From contig JAGMBW010000007.1 of the NCBI GenBank assembly GCA_023129535.1, positions 1 through 44,516 of the forward strand: DNA of 44,516 nucleotides. Direction: 5' to 3'. The DNA is from Desulfobacterales bacterium (lineage in GTDB: Bacteria > Desulfobacterota > Desulfobacteria > Desulfobacterales > C00003060). A program made the translations under genes and the position numbers. Shown here piece by piece: positions 28,835-38,734 of the stretch. The notes under the pieces were generated by a model. It searched no databases, was not told the origin of the DNA, and was given only the letters and a program-made list of their open reading frames with translations. The stretch's first letter is position 1; each line of letters begins with the position of its first letter.

Positions 28835-28919
28835 GGATAATTGACTATTGAAGATTGACCATTGAAGATTGACTTATGGTTTTCTTTCGATTGACAATCT
28901 TCAATCTTCAATTCCATAC
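28835..28919. repeat. Short-word tract, GAAGATT/AATCTTC words
   Basis: Words ATTGAAGATTGAC at the left and the complementary CAATCTTCAATCTTCAATT at the right make an inverted pair. The diguanylate cyclase stop (TGA at 28901-28903) and its last residues IED are read from it. Confidence 0.75.
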
Positions 28920-29818
28920 ATCTCTACCCGGTTTCGGCCCTTCTCCTTGGCCAGATACAGCGCCTTATCAGCACCTTCAATCAACTCCTTCGAATCGTGG
29001 ATTTGCTCGTTTCGAAATGTAGCGACCCCTGCGCTGATGGTGACACGCAGCGTTTCGCTTTTTTCATGGAATTCATGATTTTCCACTGTTCGCCGGAAGC
29101 GTTCAGCCACACAGAACGCCACTGGCCCGTCGGTGTAATGCAAAATTAGCGCGAACTCTTCACCCCCGTATCTGGCTGCCAAATCGCTGTCCCTTATTGA
29201 GTCTTGAATTAAGCGTCCCAGGGTACTCAATATGACGTCACCCGTCTGATGGCCGTGGGTGTCGTTAAATTTCTTAAAGTGGTCTATGTCTAACAAAACG
29301 CACGACAAAGACTCATGGTACCGTCTGGCGCGCAAAAAGTCCTTTGACAAGTGCTCGTGGAAATATCGGTGATTGTACAAGCCTGTGAGTCCGTCTCGGT
29401 TAGCCATCTCCTGGAGCTGCCGATTTTTCTCCTGAAGGGCTTCATAGAGCTCCTTCAGTCGTAACTGTATATTCACACGGGCTACCAACTCGCCTTCGTC
29501 AAAGGGTTTGGTCACATAGTCCAAGGCCCCCATTTTCAGCCCCCTTACCTTGTCGGCGGCCTCAGCCTTTGACGTAAGCATAATGACAGGTATGTCCTTG
29601 GTGCTATCCTCTTCTTTTAACTGTTCACACACCTGGTAGCCATCCATGACCGGCATGATCAAATCCAACAAAATGAGGTTCGGCTTTTCAGACTTGGCTG
29701 CTTCCAGGCCAGCCAGGCCGTCCTGAGCCAAAATGACCTCATGCCCGGACTTCGTCAAAATGGTTTTCCCCACGTGCACAATCAACCGGCTGTCATCTAC
29801 AATTAATATCTTGGCCAT
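28901..29818 (-). CDS. Response-regulator diguanylate cyclase (REC-GGDEF)
   Basis: 305 residues in a PleD-like layout with one receiver. The receiver (about 1-120) has acceptor Asp52 in LILLDLIMP and the KPF motif. A short coiled coil (LYEALQEKNRQLQEMAN) leads to a GGDEF domain (about 138-303) with active ARYGGEEFALIL and the inhibitory-site RDSD exactly five residues before GGEEF. It should make c-di-GMP when phosphorylated and be product-inhibited. It lies at the end of the che cluster on the same strand, making CheA a plausible phosphodonor. Its C-terminal end is read from a repeat tract. Confidence 0.93.
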   Translation of the reverse strand: MAKILIVDDSRLIVHVGKTILTKSGHEVILAQDGLAGLEAAKSEKPNLILLDLIMPVMDGYQVCEQLKEEDSTKDIPVIMLTSKAEAADKVRGLKMGALDYVTKPFDEGELVARVNIQLRLKELYEALQEKNRQLQEMANRDGLTGLYNHRYFHEHLSKDFLRARRYHESLSCVLLDIDHFKKFNDTHGHQTGDVILSTLGRLIQDSIRDSDLAARYGGEEFALILHYTDGPVAFCVAERFRRTVENHEFHEKSETLRVTISAGVATFRNEQIHDSKELIEGADKALYLAKEKGRNRVEMYGIED

Positions 29819-29964: not shown

Positions 29965-30999
29965 TCACGATCTGAGCTTCGAAAGAACAATGCCTGCTAT
30001 ATCGTCCAGCGCAGCCACTACTTCAACGGCACCACGTTCAATAGCCGATCCAGGCATACCAAAGACTACCGAGCTGGCTTCATCCTGCGCAAGGGTAAAG
30101 GCACCGGCTCTCTTCATAGCCAGCAGGCCATCAGTCCCGTCATCACCCATCCCTGTCAGGAGTATGCCAATGGCATCGCGTGCTGCAGTCTTTGCAACCG
30201 AGTTGAAGAAGACATCTACCGAAGGCCGCTGGTGCCTGACCGGTTGGCCGTCTTGCAGCCGCACGTAATATCCCTTATGGTCCTTTGCCACCTCCAGGTG
30301 CCTCCCACCGGGCGCCACCAGCACCTTGCCTCTCTCCAGGCGCTCCGTGTCTTCGGCCTCCTTTATGTCCATAGGAAACAATGTGTCCAACCGCTCGGCA
30401 AATGCCTTTGTAAAGCGTGCTGGCATGTGCTGGACTATAACAATTCCATTTACATCGGAAGGTATGGACGCGAGCAGCCTCTCTATGGCCCGAGTGCCAC
30501 CTGTTGAGGCCCCGATGGCAATGATCTTGTCCGAGGGCCCGATTTTCGCTGTCGGCAAAGGTTTTCCGGGCCTGCCAAACGGAAGGGATGGCTTGATCCT
30601 GGCCGGTGCTGCCGCTCTTACCTTCGTGGTGATCTCATATCTCAATTCCTGAAGGCCGATCCTGACATCGCCTGTAGGTTTGGCAACAAAATCAACAGCC
30701 CCGGCATCCAGGGCTTCCAGGGTGCGCATGCTATTTTCGCGGGTATATGAACTGATCATGATCACAGGGAGGGGCCGAAAGCTCATAAGGCGTTTTAGAA
30801 AGGTGATCCCATCCATTCGAGGCATCTCAATGTCAAGGGTGATCACGTCAGGCTTTTTTTTCAGGATCAAGTCTTTTGCCTCAAAGGGATCCGAAGCAGT
30901 TCCCAACACCTCGATATCAGGCTCTGCCGAGAGGATACTCGTCAATACCGATTGCACGGTAGGTGAATCGTCAACAATGAGCACGCGGATTGGATTCAT
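29965..30999 (-). CDS. cheB: CheB: chemoreceptor methylesterase / response regulator
   Basis: 344 residues. The N-terminal receiver has VDDSPTVQS and acceptor Asp56 in VITLDIEMP. The C-terminal methylesterase domain has catalytic Ser165 in IAIGASTGGT, His in IVQHMPARF and Asp in GMGDDGTDG. CheB demethylates and deamidates glutamyl sites on chemoreceptors when phosphorylated by CheA, giving adaptation. It starts 3 bases after the cheD stop, so the two are translationally coupled. Confidence 0.96.
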   Translation of the reverse strand: MNPIRVLIVDDSPTVQSVLTSILSAEPDIEVLGTASDPFEAKDLILKKKPDVITLDIEMPRMDGITFLKRLMSFRPLPVIMISSYTRENSMRTLEALDAGAVDFVAKPTGDVRIGLQELRYEITTKVRAAAPARIKPSLPFGRPGKPLPTAKIGPSDKIIAIGASTGGTRAIERLLASIPSDVNGIVIVQHMPARFTKAFAERLDTLFPMDIKEAEDTERLERGKVLVAPGGRHLEVAKDHKGYYVRLQDGQPVRHQRPSVDVFFNSVAKTAARDAIGILLTGMGDDGTDGLLAMKRAGAFTLAQDEASSVVFGMPGSAIERGAVEVVAALDDIAGIVLSKLRS

Positions 31000-31002
31000 C
31001 TC

Positions 31003-31587
31003 TTAAAACAGGATCACTGGTGATTTTTCGAGTCGTTTTTGGAAAACCCTTCCCCTATAAGCCTCTTCGTCTTGAAAGAATCGGCGCTCTTTTTTGATAT
31101 CAAATCTTTTCAAGAGGACTCGATCAGTATCAGTAAAAAACAGGATCTTTCTACCGTTGTTCCCTCCCAGGTTTTCTTTCACTGTAGGGATACCTTCCAG
31201 TTCCAGGAATTTTTTTGCAAAACGAATATTGGATCCGGTTACATCACCGTCGGTGCTTCTAAATCTCAACACATTGCCCCCCCCAAACAACTTGGCCTGA
31301 AGCCGTTCTCTTCGCGCTCCCAATCTAATAAGTTCGCCGATCAACAACTCCATGGCAAACATACCATATCGGCCGACCTCACAAGAGAGCATTTCATCAG
31401 CACGGACCATTCCCGGAAGTAAAAAATGGTTCATCCCGGCCACTTTTCTTTCCATGTCATAGATGCAGGTGGCGACACAGGAGCCCACCACAGTGTAAAG
31501 TACCTCGCCATTTTGAGTGGCAAAATACTCACCCGCCATGAGCATTATGACTGTTTTTTTCAGCTTGTGGCTGTGAAATCGGTACAA
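31003..31587 (-). CDS. cheD: CheD: chemoreceptor glutamine deamidase
   Basis: 194 residues. CheD deamidates specific receptor glutamines and in some bacteria interacts with CheC or CheY. The catalytic Cys37 lies in VVGSCVATCIYD and the His in GMNHFLLPG (about 53). LFGGGNVLR and NIRFAKKFLELEGI are also typical. A longer than usual C-terminal tail (KKERRFFQDEEAYRGRVFQKRLEKS) extends past the domain. The gene lies between cheR and cheB. No cheC is seen in the window. Confidence 0.94.
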   Translation of the reverse strand: MYRFHSHKLKKTVIMLMAGEYFATQNGEVLYTVVGSCVATCIYDMERKVAGMNHFLLPGMVRADEMLSCEVGRYGMFAMELLIGELIRLGARRERLQAKLFGGGNVLRFRSTDGDVTGSNIRFAKKFLELEGIPTVKENLGGNNGRKILFFTDTDRVLLKRFDIKKERRFFQDEEAYRGRVFQKRLEKSPVILF

Positions 31588-31603
31588 AAGTCTATCTCTT
31601 CGA

Positions 31604-32434
31604 CTATCCTCTCTTTTGATAGATGGAATGGCCCACTAAGGCAAAACGCTCGTCGATGCCAATCAAAGATTCGGAAGATCCCAGCAACAGGAATCCATGT
31701 CGCTCCAAAACGCAGAAGAAACTATCTATGAGTTTCTTTTTAACCTCTGCATCAAAATATATCATCACGTTTCGGCAAAAAATGATGTCGACAGGGCTCT
31801 TGAAAGAAAAGTCAAAATGGACAATGTTAAGCCTGCGAAACAATAGTTTTTTTCTTAAGACCTCCCTGACCAGAAAGAATCCAGTGTCCTTTCCGGTACC
31901 TTTTCTAAAATATCTCAGATATTCCACGGGAATTTGTTGTACACACTCCCTTGAATATTTACCCTTATAGGCAAATTTGAGGTCGTCTGTATCAATATCG
32001 CTGGCGAGGATCTTAATGTCCCAGGCAGCGTCCCTTTTAAACATCTCGTTTACCACGATAGCAATACTGTAAGCTTCCTCGCCTGTGGCGCATCCGGCGG
32101 ACCATATGCGCAGCTTCCTGGTAGTCTGCTTCTGTGCCGCCACTTGAGGTAATACGACGTTGGCCAGAAGTTCAAACTGTTTGGTGTGCCTGAAAAACGC
32201 GGTTTGGTCGACAGTAATCGCGTTGATAAGTTGCCGAAGTTCCAATCCGCCTTCTTTGTTATGAAGCAAGTAGCGATAATACGCACCATACGAATCTAAC
32301 CCGAACCGACTCAGTCTGGAGGCCAACCTTCGTTGCAAAGTCGCCTTTTTTGCACGAGAAAACGAGATGCCAACATGTTTCTTGACAAGGTGTCTGAATA
32401 ACTCAAATTCTGATTCCGACAGGTCGGGAACCAT
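31604..32434 (-). CDS. cheR: CheR: chemoreceptor glutamate methyltransferase
   Basis: 276 residues. An N-terminal helical domain (LVKKHVGISFSRAKKATLQRRLASRL) precedes the SAM-binding domain, with LRIWSAGCATGEEAYSIAI and the DIIFCRNVMIYFD segment. CheR methylates receptor glutamates opposite to CheB. There is no C-terminal pentapeptide-tether extension or TPR. It lies 18 bases after cheW and 16 bases before cheD on the same strand. Confidence 0.96.
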   Translation of the reverse strand: MVPDLSESEFELFRHLVKKHVGISFSRAKKATLQRRLASRLSRFGLDSYGAYYRYLLHNKEGGLELRQLINAITVDQTAFFRHTKQFELLANVVLPQVAAQKQTTRKLRIWSAGCATGEEAYSIAIVVNEMFKRDAAWDIKILASDIDTDDLKFAYKGKYSRECVQQIPVEYLRYFRKGTGKDTGFFLVREVLRKKLLFRRLNIVHFDFSFKSPVDIIFCRNVMIYFDAEVKKKLIDSFFCVLERHGFLLLGSSESLIGIDERFALVGHSIYQKRG

Positions 32435-32452
32435 AAGAGCACACTGTGTTGA

Positions 32453-32905
32453 TCAGGCAGCATCCAGGATTTCGAGTTCCTCAGGACTCAGGAGTCGATC
32501 TACGTCCAACAGGATGATAAGCTCATCTTCTTTCTTGCCGATGCCTTTGAGATATTCGGTTTGTACACCGGGGGGAAGATTGGCAGTGGCTTGAACTTCC
32601 TCGGGAAAGAGTTCCACCACGTCCGAAATCTCATCTACAATAACCCCCATAACTCTTCCCGATATCTCTATTACCATGATTATGTGGAAACGGGTGTAAG
32701 TAGTTTCCGGAAGATGAAACTTTTCTTTCAAATCAAATACAGGCAGAATAATCCCTCTCAGATTAATGATCCCCTTAATAAAGCCTCTCATATTGGGAAG
32801 GGGTGTAACCTTTCGATAACTGACGACCTCTTTTATCTTGAGGATTTCAATACCGAATATTTGTTCATTTATTGAAAAGATGACATATTGCTCAATTTCA
32901 GACAT
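32453..32905 (-). CDS. cheW: CheW: chemotaxis coupling protein
   Basis: 150 residues and a single CheW domain: IFGIEILKIKEVVSYRKVTPLPN, FIKGIINLRGIILPVFDLK, and VIVDEISDVVELF. CheW links the receptor array to CheA. Its ATG overlaps the MCP stop in a TAATG arrangement, so this MCP is its likely partner. Confidence 0.96.
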   Translation of the reverse strand: MSEIEQYVIFSINEQIFGIEILKIKEVVSYRKVTPLPNMRGFIKGIINLRGIILPVFDLKEKFHLPETTYTRFHIIMVIEISGRVMGVIVDEISDVVELFPEEVQATANLPPGVQTEYLKGIGKKEDELIILLDVDRLLSPEELEILDAA

Positions 32906-35217
32906 TAGAATTCCTCGAATCCCTCATCTAACTCTTTTTCTATCAAGTCGTCTTCCTTCTCTTCGATGGGATGCTGGGTAGCCAACGCCTCACGCAACGA
33001 CTTTGTAGTAGGCGGTTTGGTTCCTCGCCTCTCTTTCTTTGAAACTGGAATACTCTTCTTGAAACTGACATCCTCAACCTCGATATCCTCCTGATCGCCC
33101 AACGTGAACTTCTCGGCCATCCCCTGTAGCAAACTGGCTTTTTCGTTGAGCTGTTCTGTAGCACCAGCCAGTTCATCCACTAATGTTACATTATGTTCAA
33201 TCACATCACTCATCTCGTCCATTCCCTGCCCAATTTGCTCAACTCCTCGCGAGCTCTCCTGCGTGGCTAAGGAGACCTCGCTGAGAGCATCGGAAACCTG
33301 TTTAACGGTTTGGACAATCTTCTTAAATCCGTTCTCAAGCTGGCCAACCCACTCCTTGCCCGTATCAACCCTTTCCATAATATCACGAACAAGGCTTTGA
33401 ATATCCTTGGACGCCTCTGAGCTTCTCTTTGCAAGACTGCGTATTTCGTTGGCAACAACAGCAAACCCCCGCCCATGTTCTCCGGCCCGCGCCGCTTCCA
33501 CGGCAGCATTGATCGAAAGAAGGTTGGTCTGAAAGGTTATGTCGTTGATCAAATCCATCATCTCTACGATTTTGCGGCTGCCTTTCGACATGTCGTTCAT
33601 GGCCTGAGTTGTCTTTTCAACTGTATCTCCACCCTCCACGGCTACAGCAACCGCCTCCTTTGAAAGACTATCGGCCCGCTGGGTGTTAGTGGCGTTTTGG
33701 CTGATATTGGATACAAGTTGTTCCACAGTTGCGCTCGTCTCTTCCACAGTGGCGGCCTGTTGCTGGGTGCGCTGCGAAAGTTCCTGGTTTCCTTCAGAGA
33801 TGTGCCGGACGCCCCTGACCACTGTAAGGGCGGCCTTTTTCGTCTGGCCAATAAGTTCCTCCATTTGATCAATGGTTTCGTTGGTTCTCTCAACCAGTTG
33901 GTCCATTGCATCATTTTTACCACTTGTTTCGGCCCTCACCGTGAGGTCGCCCTCGGCAACTCTTCTCAAGATACCTGAAAGGTTCTTGACTCTCTCCTGC
34001 ATGTTCTTCTTTGCTTCTTCTTCCTTGAGGTAAGAATCCCTGAGCACGGATTCTGCTTCAACTTCTTTGGAGATATCGCGCATAATCTCAAACCCGCCCA
34101 GGATCTTGCCCGCAGAGTCCCTCAGGGCAGCTCCACTCGTCATAATAGGGATTTCCTTCCCCTCTGCATTTTTCATCGTAACCCTGGAACCCACGGTAGC
34201 CTCTCCGGTCTCCATGGCCTTTTTCACAGGGCACGCCGTATGGCACACATCGGTTTTAAATACCTGTCCACAGGTTCTCTTCCCCTGAACCTCATCAGGC
34301 CGAACCCCCGCAAGTTTGGCAGCGGCATCATTCATATAGGTCACATTCATATCAGGATCGACCATAATAAAAGGGTCTGAAATGCCCAGCTTGAGGCTAT
34401 TGGCATATTCCATGCGATCGCGTATGTTTTTAATCATCTGGTCAAAATTCCGAGCTAACTTTCCGATGGAGTCATAAGAATCATCATGGACTTCAACGGT
34501 GATATCTCCTGCCGAGACCTGACCCGTCTTCTCTGCCAACCCCTGAATGCGCCGGGTTACCAATCGATTGAAAAGAAAGTTTATAACAAATATGATCCCT
34601 ATGATCCCTATCCCAGAATATATAATCAAGCGATTTCTGGCTGCGGCAAGCGATGCATAAACCTCTTTTACAGGGTGTTTGACAACCATGGCACCCAGGA
34701 CTTTTTGACTTGCCCCGTGGCAGTGATGACAGGGACTTTCATTCAAAAGGGGCTTTATTGTGACCATAAAGGCGTGCTGGTCTCTGATTTCCGTAAACGA
34801 CTGTTCAGGCGACTGTCCTGTCCTTAATGCACCGGCAAGCGCCTCCTGGGTCTCTTTTTCCCACAGATACTCCGTCATGCTGGTATGAATGCGGTCTTCT
34901 TCCGAGGCATAGGTGAGCCTCTCGCGGAAGTCGGATATATAGACCTCAACGCCTTTCATGTTGTCTTTAATATCGTTTAGTTGCTCCTCAACTGTCTTGC
35001 TATCTCCGACTGACATGGGATATTTGATAGCGCTGTATGTGTTTTCGAGCAGGCTCTGGTTCGATTCTGCCACCTGGTTCAAGGCGCTTTCAGTATGAAA
35101 AGATAGTGTTTGATAAAGGGATATCCCGGTAATTGCCCCAACCACCATGATAGTTGCCACGAGGATCTTGGCACGAAGCCCGGTCCTTTTTGATAGTTTA
35201 TGTATCCAGTTTGTCAT
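32905..35217 (-). CDS. Methyl-accepting chemotaxis protein with periplasmic haem-c motif and Cys-rich PAS
   Basis: 770 residues from the ATG at 35217, with GGAGGTGAAGG upstream; a GTG 5 codons earlier is rejected. TM1 is at about 15-37. The periplasmic domain carries SPCHHCHGAS with the CxxCH motif at Cys163, predicting one covalently bound haem. TM2 is at about 195-217 (IIYSGIGIIGIIFVINFLF). Then come HAMP, a PAS domain with a three-Cys segment (RTCGQVF, DVCHTACPVKKA), a second HAMP-like stretch and the signalling domain (tip INDITFQTNLLSINAAVEAARAGE). It is likely a redox, NO or O2 sensor. It sits between a tetraheme cytochrome gene and cheW. Confidence 0.9.
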   Translation of the reverse strand: MTNWIHKLSKRTGLRAKILVATIMVVGAITGISLYQTLSFHTESALNQVAESNQSLLENTYSAIKYPMSVGDSKTVEEQLNDIKDNMKGVEVYISDFRERLTYASEEDRIHTSMTEYLWEKETQEALAGALRTGQSPEQSFTEIRDQHAFMVTIKPLLNESPCHHCHGASQKVLGAMVVKHPVKEVYASLAAARNRLIIYSGIGIIGIIFVINFLFNRLVTRRIQGLAEKTGQVSAGDITVEVHDDSYDSIGKLARNFDQMIKNIRDRMEYANSLKLGISDPFIMVDPDMNVTYMNDAAAKLAGVRPDEVQGKRTCGQVFKTDVCHTACPVKKAMETGEATVGSRVTMKNAEGKEIPIMTSGAALRDSAGKILGGFEIMRDISKEVEAESVLRDSYLKEEEAKKNMQERVKNLSGILRRVAEGDLTVRAETSGKNDAMDQLVERTNETIDQMEELIGQTKKAALTVVRGVRHISEGNQELSQRTQQQAATVEETSATVEQLVSNISQNATNTQRADSLSKEAVAVAVEGGDTVEKTTQAMNDMSKGSRKIVEMMDLINDITFQTNLLSINAAVEAARAGEHGRGFAVVANEIRSLAKRSSEASKDIQSLVRDIMERVDTGKEWVGQLENGFKKIVQTVKQVSDALSEVSLATQESSRGVEQIGQGMDEMSDVIEHNVTLVDELAGATEQLNEKASLLQGMAEKFTLGDQEDIEVEDVSFKKSIPVSKKERRGTKPPTTKSLREALATQHPIEEKEDDLIEKELDEGFEEF

Positions 35218-35232
35218 ATCCTTCACCTCCAC

Positions 35233-35322
35233 CAGTTGTGTCTACCGTGTTCATTGTGTTTGTCGGGTTTATTGGGTTAACCCAATAAACTCAATGAACT
35301 CAACAGACTCAATGAACTCAAG
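35233..35322. repeat. Inverted short-word tract with a perfect 24-bp palindrome
   Basis: ACTCAATGA/ACTCAACAG words at 35279-35322 face complementary words at the left. Their junction (35267-35290) is a perfect 24-bp palindrome with half-site GTTTATTGGGTT. It lies between the cytochrome stop and the MCP ribosome site, inside the che cluster. Confidence 0.75.
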
Positions 35323-35805
35323 TCAGTGTGCCCCCCCGTGGATCAGGGGCTTGTAATGAAAGGCACCCACCCTCTCTGCACTATGGCAGACCTCGCAATC
35401 CTTTGCCGTCATGCTCCCTATAATGTCTTCCGGTTCGTTGGTTTCAACATGAAGACTCCCCGGGCCGTGACAGACCTCACAACCCGCATTCTTGAGGTTG
35501 GGCGTCTCCTGTTCGGAGCGGAACCCACCCGGTTTTTTGTATCCGGTGGTGTGACACTCGAAGCACTTGCGAAACTCTGCCTCCGTGAGACCCTTTTTCA
35601 TTACCTTGATGCTTTCATAAGAGTGGGCCTTCTTGGCATAGGTCTTGAAATTTTCATATTCGGTTTCGTGGCAATCTTGGCACGCATCAGAGCCCACATA
35701 GCCACTCGGTTTGGGGTTCTGTGCCCAAACCGGGGTGGATACAAAAATGAAAAACATCATGTAAACCAAGCCCTTAGCCTGATTTGCCCTTTTGTTCACT
35801 TTCAT
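35323..35805 (-). CDS. Periplasmic tetraheme cytochrome c (c554-like) inside the che operon
   Basis: 160 residues from the ATG at 35805, with AAGGAG 9 bases upstream. A signal peptide (GLVYMMFFIFVSTPVWA, cleaved before QNPKP) is followed by four CxxCH haem sites: CQDCH, CFECH, CEVCH, CEVCH. YVGSDACQDCHETEYENF and NAGCEVCHGPGSLH fit the cytochrome c554/c-prime-like multiheme group. It would be a periplasmic electron carrier. It overlaps the cheA 3' end by 32 bases and precedes the haem-bearing MCP. This position suggests it feeds redox information to, or shares electrons with, that receptor, which is an inference. Confidence 0.88.
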   Translation of the reverse strand: MKVNKRANQAKGLVYMMFFIFVSTPVWAQNPKPSGYVGSDACQDCHETEYENFKTYAKKAHSYESIKVMKKGLTEAEFRKCFECHTTGYKKPGGFRSEQETPNLKNAGCEVCHGPGSLHVETNEPEDIIGSMTAKDCEVCHSAERVGAFHYKPLIHGGAH

Positions 35806-37936
35806 AGTCTTCGTCTCCTTCAAAGGAATGTTTGAAGAATATTTCCTCCAGTCCTAAAAGATCCAGAACAAGGGAGACCGAGCCATCCCCCAGGATGGTG
35901 GCACCGGCAATCCCCTTGACGTTGCGATAGTTTGTCTCCAGGGTCTTGACAATAACCTGTTGCGGGTCCAGGACCTCGTCTACAGCTATACCAAAGGTTT
36001 TTCTATCTGTATTCACAAAGACCAGCGCAGAGGTGTCGCCATTTGCAGAAGGCATACCTATGTCAAGAATTTTCGTTATATCTACAAGGGGAAGATAATC
36101 ACCCCGAAACGGGTATACCCTTTCCCGGGCTCCAAAGCTCTTGACGAGTTCGTTGTCGAATTTTTCCGTCGAAACAACAGACTGCAATGGCACCAGGTAT
36201 GAAGCGCCCTGCACCATCACGCGCAAGACCTCCATGAGGGCAGATATCAGGGGCAGGCATAAGATAAAGGTAGTCCCCCTGTCCTTTTCCGTATGAATGT
36301 CTATGGTGCCCCCGATTTGATCAAGCTTTGTTTTGACCACATTCATCCCAACACCTCTGCCGGAGAGCTCCGTAACCTCTGAGGTGGTGGAAAACCCGGG
36401 CTTAAACAGAAAGTCCAGTAAGTCGTCTTCACTCAGGACTTGATCCGGCTCAATCCAGCCCCTTTCAATGGCCTTCCGCCTGATGGCCGCCGAGTCGATC
36501 CCTCTTCCGTCGTCACGGATCTCAACAAAGATTCTTCCTGCTCTCTGATATGCCTTGAATTCGATGATCCCCGTGGGCGGTTTTCCCTTTGCCTCCCTTT
36601 CTTCCGGAGTTTCTATGCCGTGATCGATACAATTTCGCACAAGATGTTTTAGAGGATCTGTACAATGTTCAATCACCTCTTTGTCCAATTCCGTATCAAG
36701 TCCGGTTAAGATCACGTTGATCTGTTTGTTCTGCTTAAGAGCAAGATCCCTTGCCATACGCTGGAATCTGCGGAAGGTTCCTTCTAAGGGAAACATTCGA
36801 ACCCGTGTCACTCGTTCCTGAAATTCTTGGTTCACCTTGAGGAGGTTTTCCATCTCCTCCGTCATTTCCATTTGTCCGGGGCTGGTATACTTTTCAAAGA
36901 GTGTCTGCAGCTTAGCGAGTCCAATACCCATCTCTTCACCCAGATTTACCAGGTTATCAATTTTTTCCACATCAACACGGATGGTTGTTTTGCGATAAAC
37001 CGTGCGACTCTCCTCCTGTAACGCCACTGCTTTCTGAAGATCTTTGCGCTGGATTTTTCCATCCTCTACCAGGATCTCCCCCAGCATCTTCTGTTTCTTC
37101 AGGGCATCGGTCAATTCCTCATCTGTAATGCTGGTCTTTTCCAGGAGCACTTCACCGAGTTTCTTGTCGGCAAGCTCCACATCAACACCCTCCCTATAGC
37201 GCTTGGTGACATCTTCAATACGAATGTCGTTGTCATCCTTGACGAACATAAAAACATCTTCAAGATCCTCACGAGACCGCCTGGTCCTAATAATGACCTG
37301 CCAGGATATATAGAGATCATACATGGAAATATTTTCAAAATCCGGAAGTTCGGAAAGATCGGGATCCACCTGGACAAACTCCCCTAATTCCGAAAGGCCC
37401 AGAAGGATGAGGAGGGGGTCCTGGCCGGAATAGAAAAGTTGCTTTCCGAACTTGAGATCAATCTTGTAGAAACTGAATTTTTGTGCGGATTTTTTGGGAG
37501 CTTGTTTGACCGGTGGCTCAGCTCCCTCTTCAGATGAGCTTATCCCATCTATCCCCAAATAGCGCTTTACCTGATCCTTTCGCTCATTAAGAACCTCAGG
37601 GTCGACTTCGCTCTCACCTTGAGATACCCTGTCAACCATGGATCGAATAAAGTCGATTGAGCCCAGAAGAAAGGTGATAAGGCTATTGGTAAGAGCCAAC
37701 TTACCAGCTCTGAGACGTTCCAGCAGGTTCTCTAAAAGGTGGGCAAAGTCTGAAATACCCATAAATCCTACCATGGCCGCACCACTCTTCAGGGTATGAA
37801 CCGACCTGAAAAGCCGTTCTATATCTGATGCAGATTCCGGCGTGGATTCAAGGGCCAGAAGGCTTTCTTCTGACGCTTTGAGCAGATCTTCTGTCTCAGA
37901 AAAAAAAATCTCTAAGGTCTCATCTTGTTCGCTCAT
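35774..37936 (-). CDS. cheA: CheA histidine kinase with embedded MshEN-like tandem motif
   Basis: 720 residues. The start is placed at MSEQDE, where ATG overlaps the cheY TGA (ATGA). The Hpt domain has phospho-acceptor His47 in SVHTLKSGAAMVGF. A P2-like region (about 150-250) is followed at about 255-310 by two tandem LGEVLLEKTSITDEELTDAL / LGEILVEDGKIQRKDLQKAV motifs. These resemble MshEN c-di-GMP-binding motifs but lack the leading Arg, and the first also lacks the Gly. Dimerisation, the HATPase domain (VRNCIDHGIETPEER, IRDDGRGID, GRGVGMNVVK) and a CheW-like domain complete it. It autophosphorylates and feeds CheY, CheB and possibly the REC-GGDEF protein. Confidence 0.95.
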   Translation of the reverse strand: MSEQDETLEIFFSETEDLLKASEESLLALESTPESASDIERLFRSVHTLKSGAAMVGFMGISDFAHLLENLLERLRAGKLALTNSLITFLLGSIDFIRSMVDRVSQGESEVDPEVLNERKDQVKRYLGIDGISSSEEGAEPPVKQAPKKSAQKFSFYKIDLKFGKQLFYSGQDPLLILLGLSELGEFVQVDPDLSELPDFENISMYDLYISWQVIIRTRRSREDLEDVFMFVKDDNDIRIEDVTKRYREGVDVELADKKLGEVLLEKTSITDEELTDALKKQKMLGEILVEDGKIQRKDLQKAVALQEESRTVYRKTTIRVDVEKIDNLVNLGEEMGIGLAKLQTLFEKYTSPGQMEMTEEMENLLKVNQEFQERVTRVRMFPLEGTFRRFQRMARDLALKQNKQINVILTGLDTELDKEVIEHCTDPLKHLVRNCIDHGIETPEEREAKGKPPTGIIEFKAYQRAGRIFVEIRDDGRGIDSAAIRRKAIERGWIEPDQVLSEDDLLDFLFKPGFSTTSEVTELSGRGVGMNVVKTKLDQIGGTIDIHTEKDRGTTFILCLPLISALMEVLRVMVQGASYLVPLQSVVSTEKFDNELVKSFGARERVYPFRGDYLPLVDITKILDIGMPSANGDTSALVFVNTDRKTFGIAVDEVLDPQQVIVKTLETNYRNVKGIAGATILGDGSVSLVLDLLGLEEIFFKHSFEGDEDYESEQKGKSG

Positions 37937-38316
37937 TTTGGCCACACAACTTTCTTGACAGCCCACAGCAGTTGTTCGGGTTGAAAAGGCTTTACCAGCC
38001 AGCCCGCGGCCCCTGCGGCTCGCCCTTTTTCTATCACAGACTCCTCGCCCTCGGTGCTCAAGACCAATATGGGAAGAAACTTGAATTCGGTCTCTTTTAC
38101 CCTGGATATAAAAGTAATCCCATCCATCTGCGGCATATTAATGTCAGTGATAATCAGGGACAAGGATTGATCATTTTCCTTCATGGATTGCAGTTTTTGG
38201 AGTGCATCTTGACCATCTACAGCCTCTGTCACTCTATATCCTGCATTGCGCAAGCAAAAAGAACCCGACGACCTCATCGTAGGCGAATCATCCACAAATA
38301 GAATGTGCTTTTCCAT
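37933..38316 (-). CDS. cheY: CheY-like response regulator
   Basis: 127 residues from MEKHILF; an ATG 12 bases earlier (38328) is equally open and would abut the STAS stop. It is a single receiver domain: VDDSPTMRS, acceptor Asp in LIITDINMPQMDG, LVLSTEG and VKPFQPEQLLWAVKK. There is no output domain, so it should act by binding the flagellar switch or a partner. It is coupled to cheA by an ATGA overlap. The unusual VEYR-free pairing with STAS recalls chemotaxis loci that control functions other than swimming. Confidence 0.9.
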   Translation of the reverse strand: MEKHILFVDDSPTMRSSGSFCLRNAGYRVTEAVDGQDALQKLQSMKENDQSLSLIITDINMPQMDGITFISRVKETEFKFLPILVLSTEGEESVIEKGRAAGAAGWLVKPFQPEQLLWAVKKVVWPK

Positions 38317-38329
38317 CTTGGCATGCATA

Positions 38330-38626
38330 TCAGAGCAACGCGGTTTTTAGACCACAAAGCGACAAGATGTCCTCTACCTCGGCAGAGACTGCGCAAATCC
38401 GCAACTTAACCTCAGGTTCCAGCCGTCTTTTAAAGGCAATAAGCAACTGAAGGGCCGCAGTGTCAATAAATCTAACCTCGGCGAGGGAAATAGCTATCTC
38501 CTGTCCGCCCTTGAGAGACTCTTCCAAAAAGACTTTCAACACACCCAGCTCATGGATAGAGAGTTCTCCCTGAAGGTGGTAAATGCCGCGTTCGTCTTGG
38601 GTTACATTAAACTTTCTCGCAGCCAT
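38330..38626 (-). CDS. STAS-domain protein (anti-anti-sigma-like), first gene of the che operon
   Basis: 98 residues, a lone STAS domain: GIYHLQGELSIHELGVLKVFLEESL and AISLAEVRFIDTAALQLLIAFKRRL. The phosphorylatable Ser of SpoIIAA-type proteins is Thr here (DTAAL for DSAGL). Such proteins bind ATPase or kinase partners, and STAS-CheY-CheA gene order is known in several signalling loci. No anti-sigma kinase lies nearby. It ends 2-13 bases from the cheY start. A sigma-54 element lies about 95-110 bases upstream. Confidence 0.88.
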   Translation of the reverse strand: MAARKFNVTQDERGIYHLQGELSIHELGVLKVFLEESLKGGQEIAISLAEVRFIDTAALQLLIAFKRRLEPEVKLRICAVSAEVEDILSLCGLKTALL

Positions 38627-38630
38627 CTAT

Positions 38631-38680
38631 TGCATTTTGGATTTTGGATTTTGGTTTTTGGATTTTGGTTTTTGGATCGC
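38631..38680. repeat. Short-word tract, TTTTGGA words
   Basis: About seven 7-8 bp words (ATTTTGG, ATTTTGG, TTTTTGG, ATTTTGG) between the sigma-54 element and the STAS start, so it would be transcribed as a leader. Confidence 0.75.
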
Positions 38681-38718
38681 GGAATTAAGGAAAACCGCAT
38701 TGCCCTTAAGGTTAGAGA

Positions 38719-38734
38719 AGCAAGCTGCGTGCCA
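38719..38734 (-). promoter_or_regulatory. Sigma-54 (-24/-12) promoter for the che operon
   Basis: On the minus strand TGGCACGCAGCTTGCT matches TGGCAC-N5-TTGCT with no mismatch, and GG and GC are correctly spaced. The predicted start near 38707-38709 gives a leader of about 80 bases to the STAS ATG. Expression would need RpoN and an enhancer-binding activator. Apart from this, the tract at 38631 and the tract at 38984, the 384-bp gap 38627-39010 shows nothing clear. Confidence 0.75.

Follow-up and report, generated by a model that had tools for sequence, protein, structure and literature searches.

The 44,516-nucleotide contig JAGMBW010000007.1 of a Desulfobacterales bacterium (GCA_023129535.1), referred to here as the window, carries a chemotaxis (che) operon in which the gene of a periplasmic tetrahaem cytochrome directly precedes that of a methyl-accepting chemotaxis protein (MCP) with a haem-attachment motif in its sensor domain. 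On balance, we read these two genes as a redox-relay input module that is plugged into che operons, lone MCPs and histidine-kinase phosphorelays, and that feeds a dedicated che system in the window. A functional link between the cytochrome and the haem receptor is strongly supported by comparative sequence data from Desulfobacterota, Nitrospirota and one Acidobacteriota metagenome-assembled genome (MAG); the linkage rests on gene order, and electron transfer between the two proteins is what we infer.

The pairing was evaluated by scanning an alignment of 21 cytochromes against one genome per species (84,980 species). Of the 485 relatives found, the best 80 were kept, which come from the three lineages named above; six lay too near a contig end and 74 were informative. 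With any CxxCH in the downstream sensor as the criterion, 72 of the 74 loci had, as the same-strand neighbour directly downstream, a gene whose product carries a single CxxCH in a periplasmic domain flanked by two transmembrane (TM) segments. Cytochrome and sensor genes overlap in 30 of these 72 pairs, 21 of them by 1 or 4 bases, as is usual for translationally coupled genes. In a second sample of 198 genomes drawn evenly from the phylum, which shares some species with the first, the cytochrome matches showed a sharp score gap (E 8e-44 to 7e-27), and all 22 cytochromes on its high-scoring side for which the neighbourhood was retrieved, not counting that of the window, had a CxHCHG sensor downstream. 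Two exceptions to the pairing were checked: L084 is a che operon in which the cytochrome gene immediately precedes cheA and the fragment contains no haem MCP, and at L140 a cytochrome without a sensor lies between unrelated genes. A gene-neighbourhood search of this kind had been proposed as a check in an earlier note made from the letters of the window, and it came out in favour of the pair.

Sixty relatives were searched with the cytochrome, and the che genes were mapped around the matches. Orthologues of the operon, in which the cytochrome gene separates cheA from the haem MCP, were found within the genus and, outside it, in three or more further families of the order (loci L034-L038, L044, L045, L049, L052 and L053), with about 50% identity at L049, L052 and L053, which belong to other families. 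Since the same operon recurs with the cytochrome at the same place, its layout is not a matter of chance. The cytochrome also occurs in different che operons, whose CheA is 27-40% identical, as well as before lone MCPs and before histidine kinases. The earlier note had proposed a dedicated cytochrome as a member of a che operon, which holds for this operon and its orthologues; the restriction to che systems is too narrow, because the pair also feeds lone MCPs and histidine kinases, and this two-gene cassette thus has several hosts, of which the che operon is one. Among the 67 partnered sensors that were scanned, the output was an MCPsignal domain in 43 and HisKA/HATPase in 24. Around the histidine-kinase loci, response regulators (33 of 88 proteins) and kinases (23 of 88) predominate, and the MCP loci have CheW/CheA/CheR or unrelated genes beside them. 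A position of the cytochrome elsewhere, among respiratory genes, had been named in the same note as the outcome that would speak against the link. This is not what the genomes show, because the neighbours are sensors, CheW/CheA, response regulators and other signalling genes, respiratory genes are rare, and other cytochromes lie nearby at only a few loci. At L133 and L138, a divergent b561-type cytochrome b and a multihaem cytochrome were confirmed, and genes of the same size are present in L129.

The reverse test started from the sensors. In 147 genomes of the class, 60 of the matches to the family PF21563 were inspected for an upstream gene with at least three haems; it was present for 16 CxHCH sensors and missing for six, and present for five sensors with other CxxCH motifs and missing for 30. 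When the sensors were regrouped by a glycine after the motif (CxxCHG), a grouping chosen after this table had been seen, the cytochrome lay upstream of 21 of 29 CxxCHG sensors as opposed to none of 28 other haem sensors (Fisher p 2.6e-9). The cytochrome partner therefore belongs to one subclass of haem sensors and not to haem sensors in general.

Both genes also appear to share much of their history. Across 65 pairs, the pairwise distances of cytochrome and sensor correlate with a Spearman coefficient of 0.52 (Mantel test, 0 of 999 permutations), a value that still contains species relatedness. As the split between MCP and histidine-kinase pairs needs only two changes in both trees (shuffled mean of 20 for the cytochrome tree), the sequences suggest that the cassettes mostly travel together over long times. 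Fine-scale one-to-one co-evolution was considered as well and is not clean: within the genus, 73%-identical cytochromes go with 28%-identical sensors, and the reverse. The trees give no more than a hint that the cytochrome has been displaced while the che operon around it was conserved, with two changes for the cytochrome versus one for the sensor, which is not significant (approximately unbiased test, p 0.11 and 0.19).

The cytochrome has 160 amino acids, counted from the likely start ATG at 35805, which has AAGGAGA just before it, to the end of the frame at 35323. A cleavable signal peptide ending PVWA|QNP is predicted from the sequence, and the four haem motifs CQDCH, CFECH, CEVCH and CEVCH begin at residues 42, 81, 109 and 137. 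With four CxxCH and a PF13435 match of 67.7 bits (cut-off 20.8), the protein belongs to the c554 family, whereas it is not cytochrome c554 proper, since the model NF043010 gave 40.3 bits against an equivalog cut-off of 400. Its closest solved structure is the likewise tetrahaem cytochrome c554 of Nitrosomonas europaea, both by profile (7.9e-11) and as the top match by fold in Foldseek; the window cytochrome is shorter (about 130 residues in the mature form versus 211), and the alignment covers about half. Invariant in the cytochrome family are the four CxxCH motifs, Lys31, His91 and the C-terminal His132 (numbering of alignment A4). Four haems thus face only two invariant histidines outside the motifs, His91 and His132, and one or two of the haems may have no histidine as distal ligand.

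The MCP gene, whose likely start ATG at 35217 has GGAGGTGAAGG upstream, follows about 105 bases after the cytochrome stop and encodes about 770 residues. A single CHHCH at residues 163-167 lies between the two TM segments and is followed by HAMP, PAS and MCPsignal. A profile built from 68 sensor domains (alignment A3) matches the sensors of Geobacter sulfurreducens GSU0935 (3b42) at 1.1e-11 and GSU0582 (3b47) at 1.7e-7. In the alignment to 3b42, chain residue 26 is matched by the methionine of a conserved PM-x-x-G-D motif and residue 110 by the histidine of CxxCH; since the published proximal His144 gives an offset of 34, this methionine occupies the position of Met60. In the window receptor, Met68 falls on Met60 and His167 on His144, the sequence features of a GSU0935/GSU0582-type receptor, and a methionine occupies the Met60 column in 54 of the 68 sensors. 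The aligned partner sensors all have CxHCH, nearly always with a glycine next, preceded by NExx and followed by VLG. An AlphaFold2 model of the sensor (predicted local distance difference test score 90) places the CxxCH on a short helix (153-159) that is inserted between strands (140-150 and 165-174) of a Cache-like domain, as in the sCache_heme fold, and Foldseek searches with the model find 3b42, 3b47 and the WalK and CitA sensors. The CxxCH in the extracytoplasmic domain, CHHCH in the window, is strictly conserved, which is a further trait of sCache_heme proteins. The profile of that family, PF11845 (DUF3365), was rejected for the sensor, which scores 14.5 bits against a cut-off of 24.1, and only 3 of the 67 scanned partnered sensors match it at E 1e-3. 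The best Pfam match is PF21563 (Mcp40H-20_sensor), to which the window sensor belongs with 37.1 bits against a cut-off of 27 and which is matched by 65 of the 67.

From these features, a mechanism can be proposed. The tetrahaem cytochrome would be exported and matured in the periplasm, for which the signal peptide and the haem motifs are present in the sequence, and would collect electrons from, or deliver them to, a periplasmic redox pool. Since the pairing is near-obligate, the cytochrome probably binds the MCP at its periplasmic Cache domain, where electrons would pass between the cytochrome and the one predicted c-type haem of the receptor. By homology and through the conserved methionine and histidine, the receptor haem would swap its distal ligand with the redox state, being low-spin with His/Met ligation when reduced and releasing the methionine when oxidised. 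This switch would pass through TM2, HAMP, PAS and the MCP hairpin to CheA, a route that is established for MCPs in general. It is plausible that the receptor reads the redox state of its own cytochrome, or the electron flux through it, or exchanges electrons with it; if the cytochrome controls or reports how far the receptor haem is reduced, the che system would provide energy, redox or electron-acceptor taxis. A ligand switch of this kind has been measured in GSU0935 and GSU0582, whose haem is low-spin with His/Met ligation in the reduced form and without the methionine in the oxidised form, the latter being the proposed active form (PMC8396549).

Several observations weigh against the redox relay. 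Eight of the 29 CxxCHG sensors lack an adjacent cytochrome, one of them in a che operon with a cytochrome remnant, so that the partner can be dispensable or encoded elsewhere. Furthermore, 14 of the 68 sensors have no methionine at the Met60 column, and the Foldseek support for the c554 fold of the cytochrome is weak (E 5e-3). Finally, redox may not be the signal at all, because the one haem-Cache protein with a signalling fusion that has been tested directly showed the properties of a sensor of nitric oxide (NO), which it bound with a slow off-rate, while it did not hold O2 (PMC12889525, preprint).

The last point leads to the main rival explanation, a gas sensor with its own reductase, in which the receptor haem senses NO or carbon monoxide (CO) and the cytochrome only keeps the haem ferrous and competent. 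NO and CO also take the position of Met60 when they bind to GSU0582 and GSU0935 (PMC8396549), and the pairing data fit this explanation as well as they fit the redox relay, so that sequence does not separate the two. We nevertheless regard it as rather unlikely, as the haem sensors of other motif types manage without a partner (0 of 28) and families of NO metabolism are not among the 25 commonest neighbour families of each locus set. Less likely again is an enzymatic role of the cytochrome in making, destroying or reporting the ligand, with an open haem that would react with NO, hydroxylamine or nitrite beside the receptor. Cytochrome c554, its best structural relative, reacts with NO, and the scarcity of invariant histidines would leave room for such a haem; however, the ligands may also be other residues, for example the invariant Lys31, and the protein is small and has no active-site signature beyond the family motifs, which makes this explanation improbable. 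That a general respiratory cytochrome happens to lie in the operon is refuted as a general explanation and hardly credible here, for although multihaem genes are common (263 CxxCH-like DNA motifs versus 103 for the reversed pattern in the window's genome) and a b561-type cytochrome b with a multihaem partner adjoins a few histidine-kinase loci, neither accounts for an adjacency in one orientation, three phyla and many contexts or for the contrast between the sensor subclasses.

Receptors with haem have been on record since DcrA and the Geobacter MCPs were described, and c554-type cytochromes are likewise known; what appears to be new is that the two are paired almost obligately and in one receptor subclass only. 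No description of the pairing was found in the open-access literature, to which the search extended. GSU0582 and GSU0935 are MCPs whose periplasmic Cache/PAS-like domain carries a single c-type haem, as predicted for the window receptor, and differ from it in their motif, CQSCH instead of CxHCHG; a cytochrome partner gene is not mentioned for them in the Geobacter chemotaxis literature examined, including PMC8396549. The sCache_heme proteins (DUF3365/Tll0287-like, PF11845) share the Cache fold with an inserted CxxCH helix and the fusion to MCP or histidine-kinase outputs, whereas the window sensor lies below their cut-off. Fusions to a cytochrome c-like domain have been described for them in Flavobacteria, and the preprint mentions neither operons nor a multihaem partner (PMC12889525). 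The best Pfam family of the window sensor, PF21563, is one that we take to be built on Adeh_3718 of A. dehalogenans. The solved domain of Adeh_3718 held acetate, and its authors name other proteins as haem sensors (PMC3831638).

The pairing bears on the question of how the haem of a receptor meets the electrons of the cell or its environment, and a near-obligate partner of CxHCHG/CxKCHG receptors offers a concrete physical link from periplasmic electron transfer to signalling. In LuxP-LuxQ and in maltose-binding protein with Tar, the membrane receptor obtains its signal through a soluble protein of the periplasm; the partner in the window is likewise soluble and periplasmic, but would carry electrons and not a small ligand. 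Tentatively, the pairs may form a widespread class of electron-wired receptors, with a covalent haem and a cognate tetrahaem cytochrome as a soluble, electron-carrying co-receptor, in which electron flux through a private periplasmic wire would steer the cell or regulate genes, and the cassette would change its output, with chemotaxis in some cases and histidine kinases in others. The two-protein system makes the choice between redox and NO directly testable, many candidate pairs are named in sediment and subsurface bacteria, and the cassette represents a modular redox input for engineering.

The operon extends on the reverse strand from 38626 to 28901 in the order STAS, cheY, cheA, cytochrome, MCP, cheW, cheR, cheD, cheB and a response regulator with GGDEF (Table 1). 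It is a complete chemotaxis operon, with cheA, cheW, cheY, cheR, cheB, cheD and an MCP together, and STAS, CheY, CheA, CheW, CheR, CheD, CheB and the response regulator-GGDEF protein all pass their Pfam cut-offs; FliG is also encoded in the genome. The earlier note had read the locus correctly in its parts: the cytochrome with four CxxCH overlaps the end of cheA, with which it shares 32 bases, the next gene is an MCP with CHHCH in its periplasmic domain, and STAS, cheY and cheA lie upstream and cheW, cheR, cheD and cheB downstream. The span it gave runs from the MCP stop to just past STAS; the four downstream genes lie outside (29965-32905), as its text says.

Table 1. Features of the che operon with the cytochrome-receptor pair in the window.
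Feature	Position	Strand	Evidence or remarks
STAS-domain protein, first gene of the operon	38330..38626	-	PF01740/PF13466 over cut-off; retained in orthologous operons
cheY-like response regulator	37933..38328	-	PF00072, 2.8e-25
cheA	35774..37966	-	Hpt, H-kinase_dim, HATPase_c, CheW; 51-87% identity in orthologous operons
Tetrahaem periplasmic cytochrome, c554 family	35323..35805	-	PF13435
Cytochrome-MCP spacer with long imperfect hairpin	35218..35325	-	Minimum free energy -33.4, z -2.7; hairpin not conserved in orthologues
Predicted haem-bearing MCP	32905..35217	-	TM1, Cache-like domain with CHHCH, TM2, HAMP, PAS, MCPsignal
Haem-attachment motif CHHCH of the MCP sensor, Cys163-His167	34717..34731	-	Cys, His, Cys, His invariant, 68/68 rows of alignment A3
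MCP Met68 of PM motif	35014..35016	-	Aligns with distal haem ligand Met60 of GSU0935
cheW	32453..32905	-	PF01584
cheR	31604..32434	-	PF01739
cheD	31003..31587	-	PF03975
cheB	29965..30999	-	PF01339 and PF00072
Response regulator-GGDEF, retained 3' in orthologous operons	28901..29818	-	PF00072 and PF00990; 64-89% identity there

The hairpin in the cytochrome-MCP spacer contains a TTTATTGGGTTAACCCAATAAA palindrome and TTGAGTTCATTGAGT repeats, whose spacing is not conserved. A role of this hairpin as a regulator of the pair was considered and dropped, because the spacer, the length of which varies, is not conserved. In the cytoplasmic PAS domain of the MCP, residues 316-329 (34231-34272 in the window) form a cysteine cluster, C-x8-C-x3-CP, which is kept with small variations in the orthologous MCPs and is also present in three kinases of the set (L119, L144 and L149); it is possibly a second, cytoplasmic redox or metal site, judging from the motif.

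Variants of the module were also encountered. The window's genome holds a second copy (G000:C195, L063 3910-6427), in which a remote cytochrome (37% identical) precedes a PAS histidine kinase whose haem sensor is of the PF21563 family. At L068 (7835-10023) and L069 (1088-4465), a remote cytochrome (29-41% identical) is followed by a protein of 283-291 amino acids with a TM segment at each end and then by a second membrane protein; in L069, the former has no Pfam match and the latter is a Cache histidine kinase without CxxCH, an arrangement that is perhaps a three-gene variant of the module. In the orthologous che operon at L201 (G109:C228, reverse strand, about 1350-1500), cytochrome fragments, comprising a signal-peptide start and a C-terminal part, lie between an intact-looking cheA and haem MCP. 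The cytochrome gene of L266 (G221:C131:22536-22910, reverse strand) has an in-frame TGA at the second cysteine of the second CxxCH (CCA-TGA-H) and a hairpin of about -10.5 kcal/mol just 3' of it, which may possibly indicate a selenocysteine haem motif, CxxUH, or else a sequencing error. In the phylum sample, a c554-like domain related to the cytochrome also occurs inside longer open frames of about 390-500 amino acids, one of which (P0001) matches, below the cut-off, the C-terminus of the NCBIfam model NF041198 for a UshA-like (seleno)protein.

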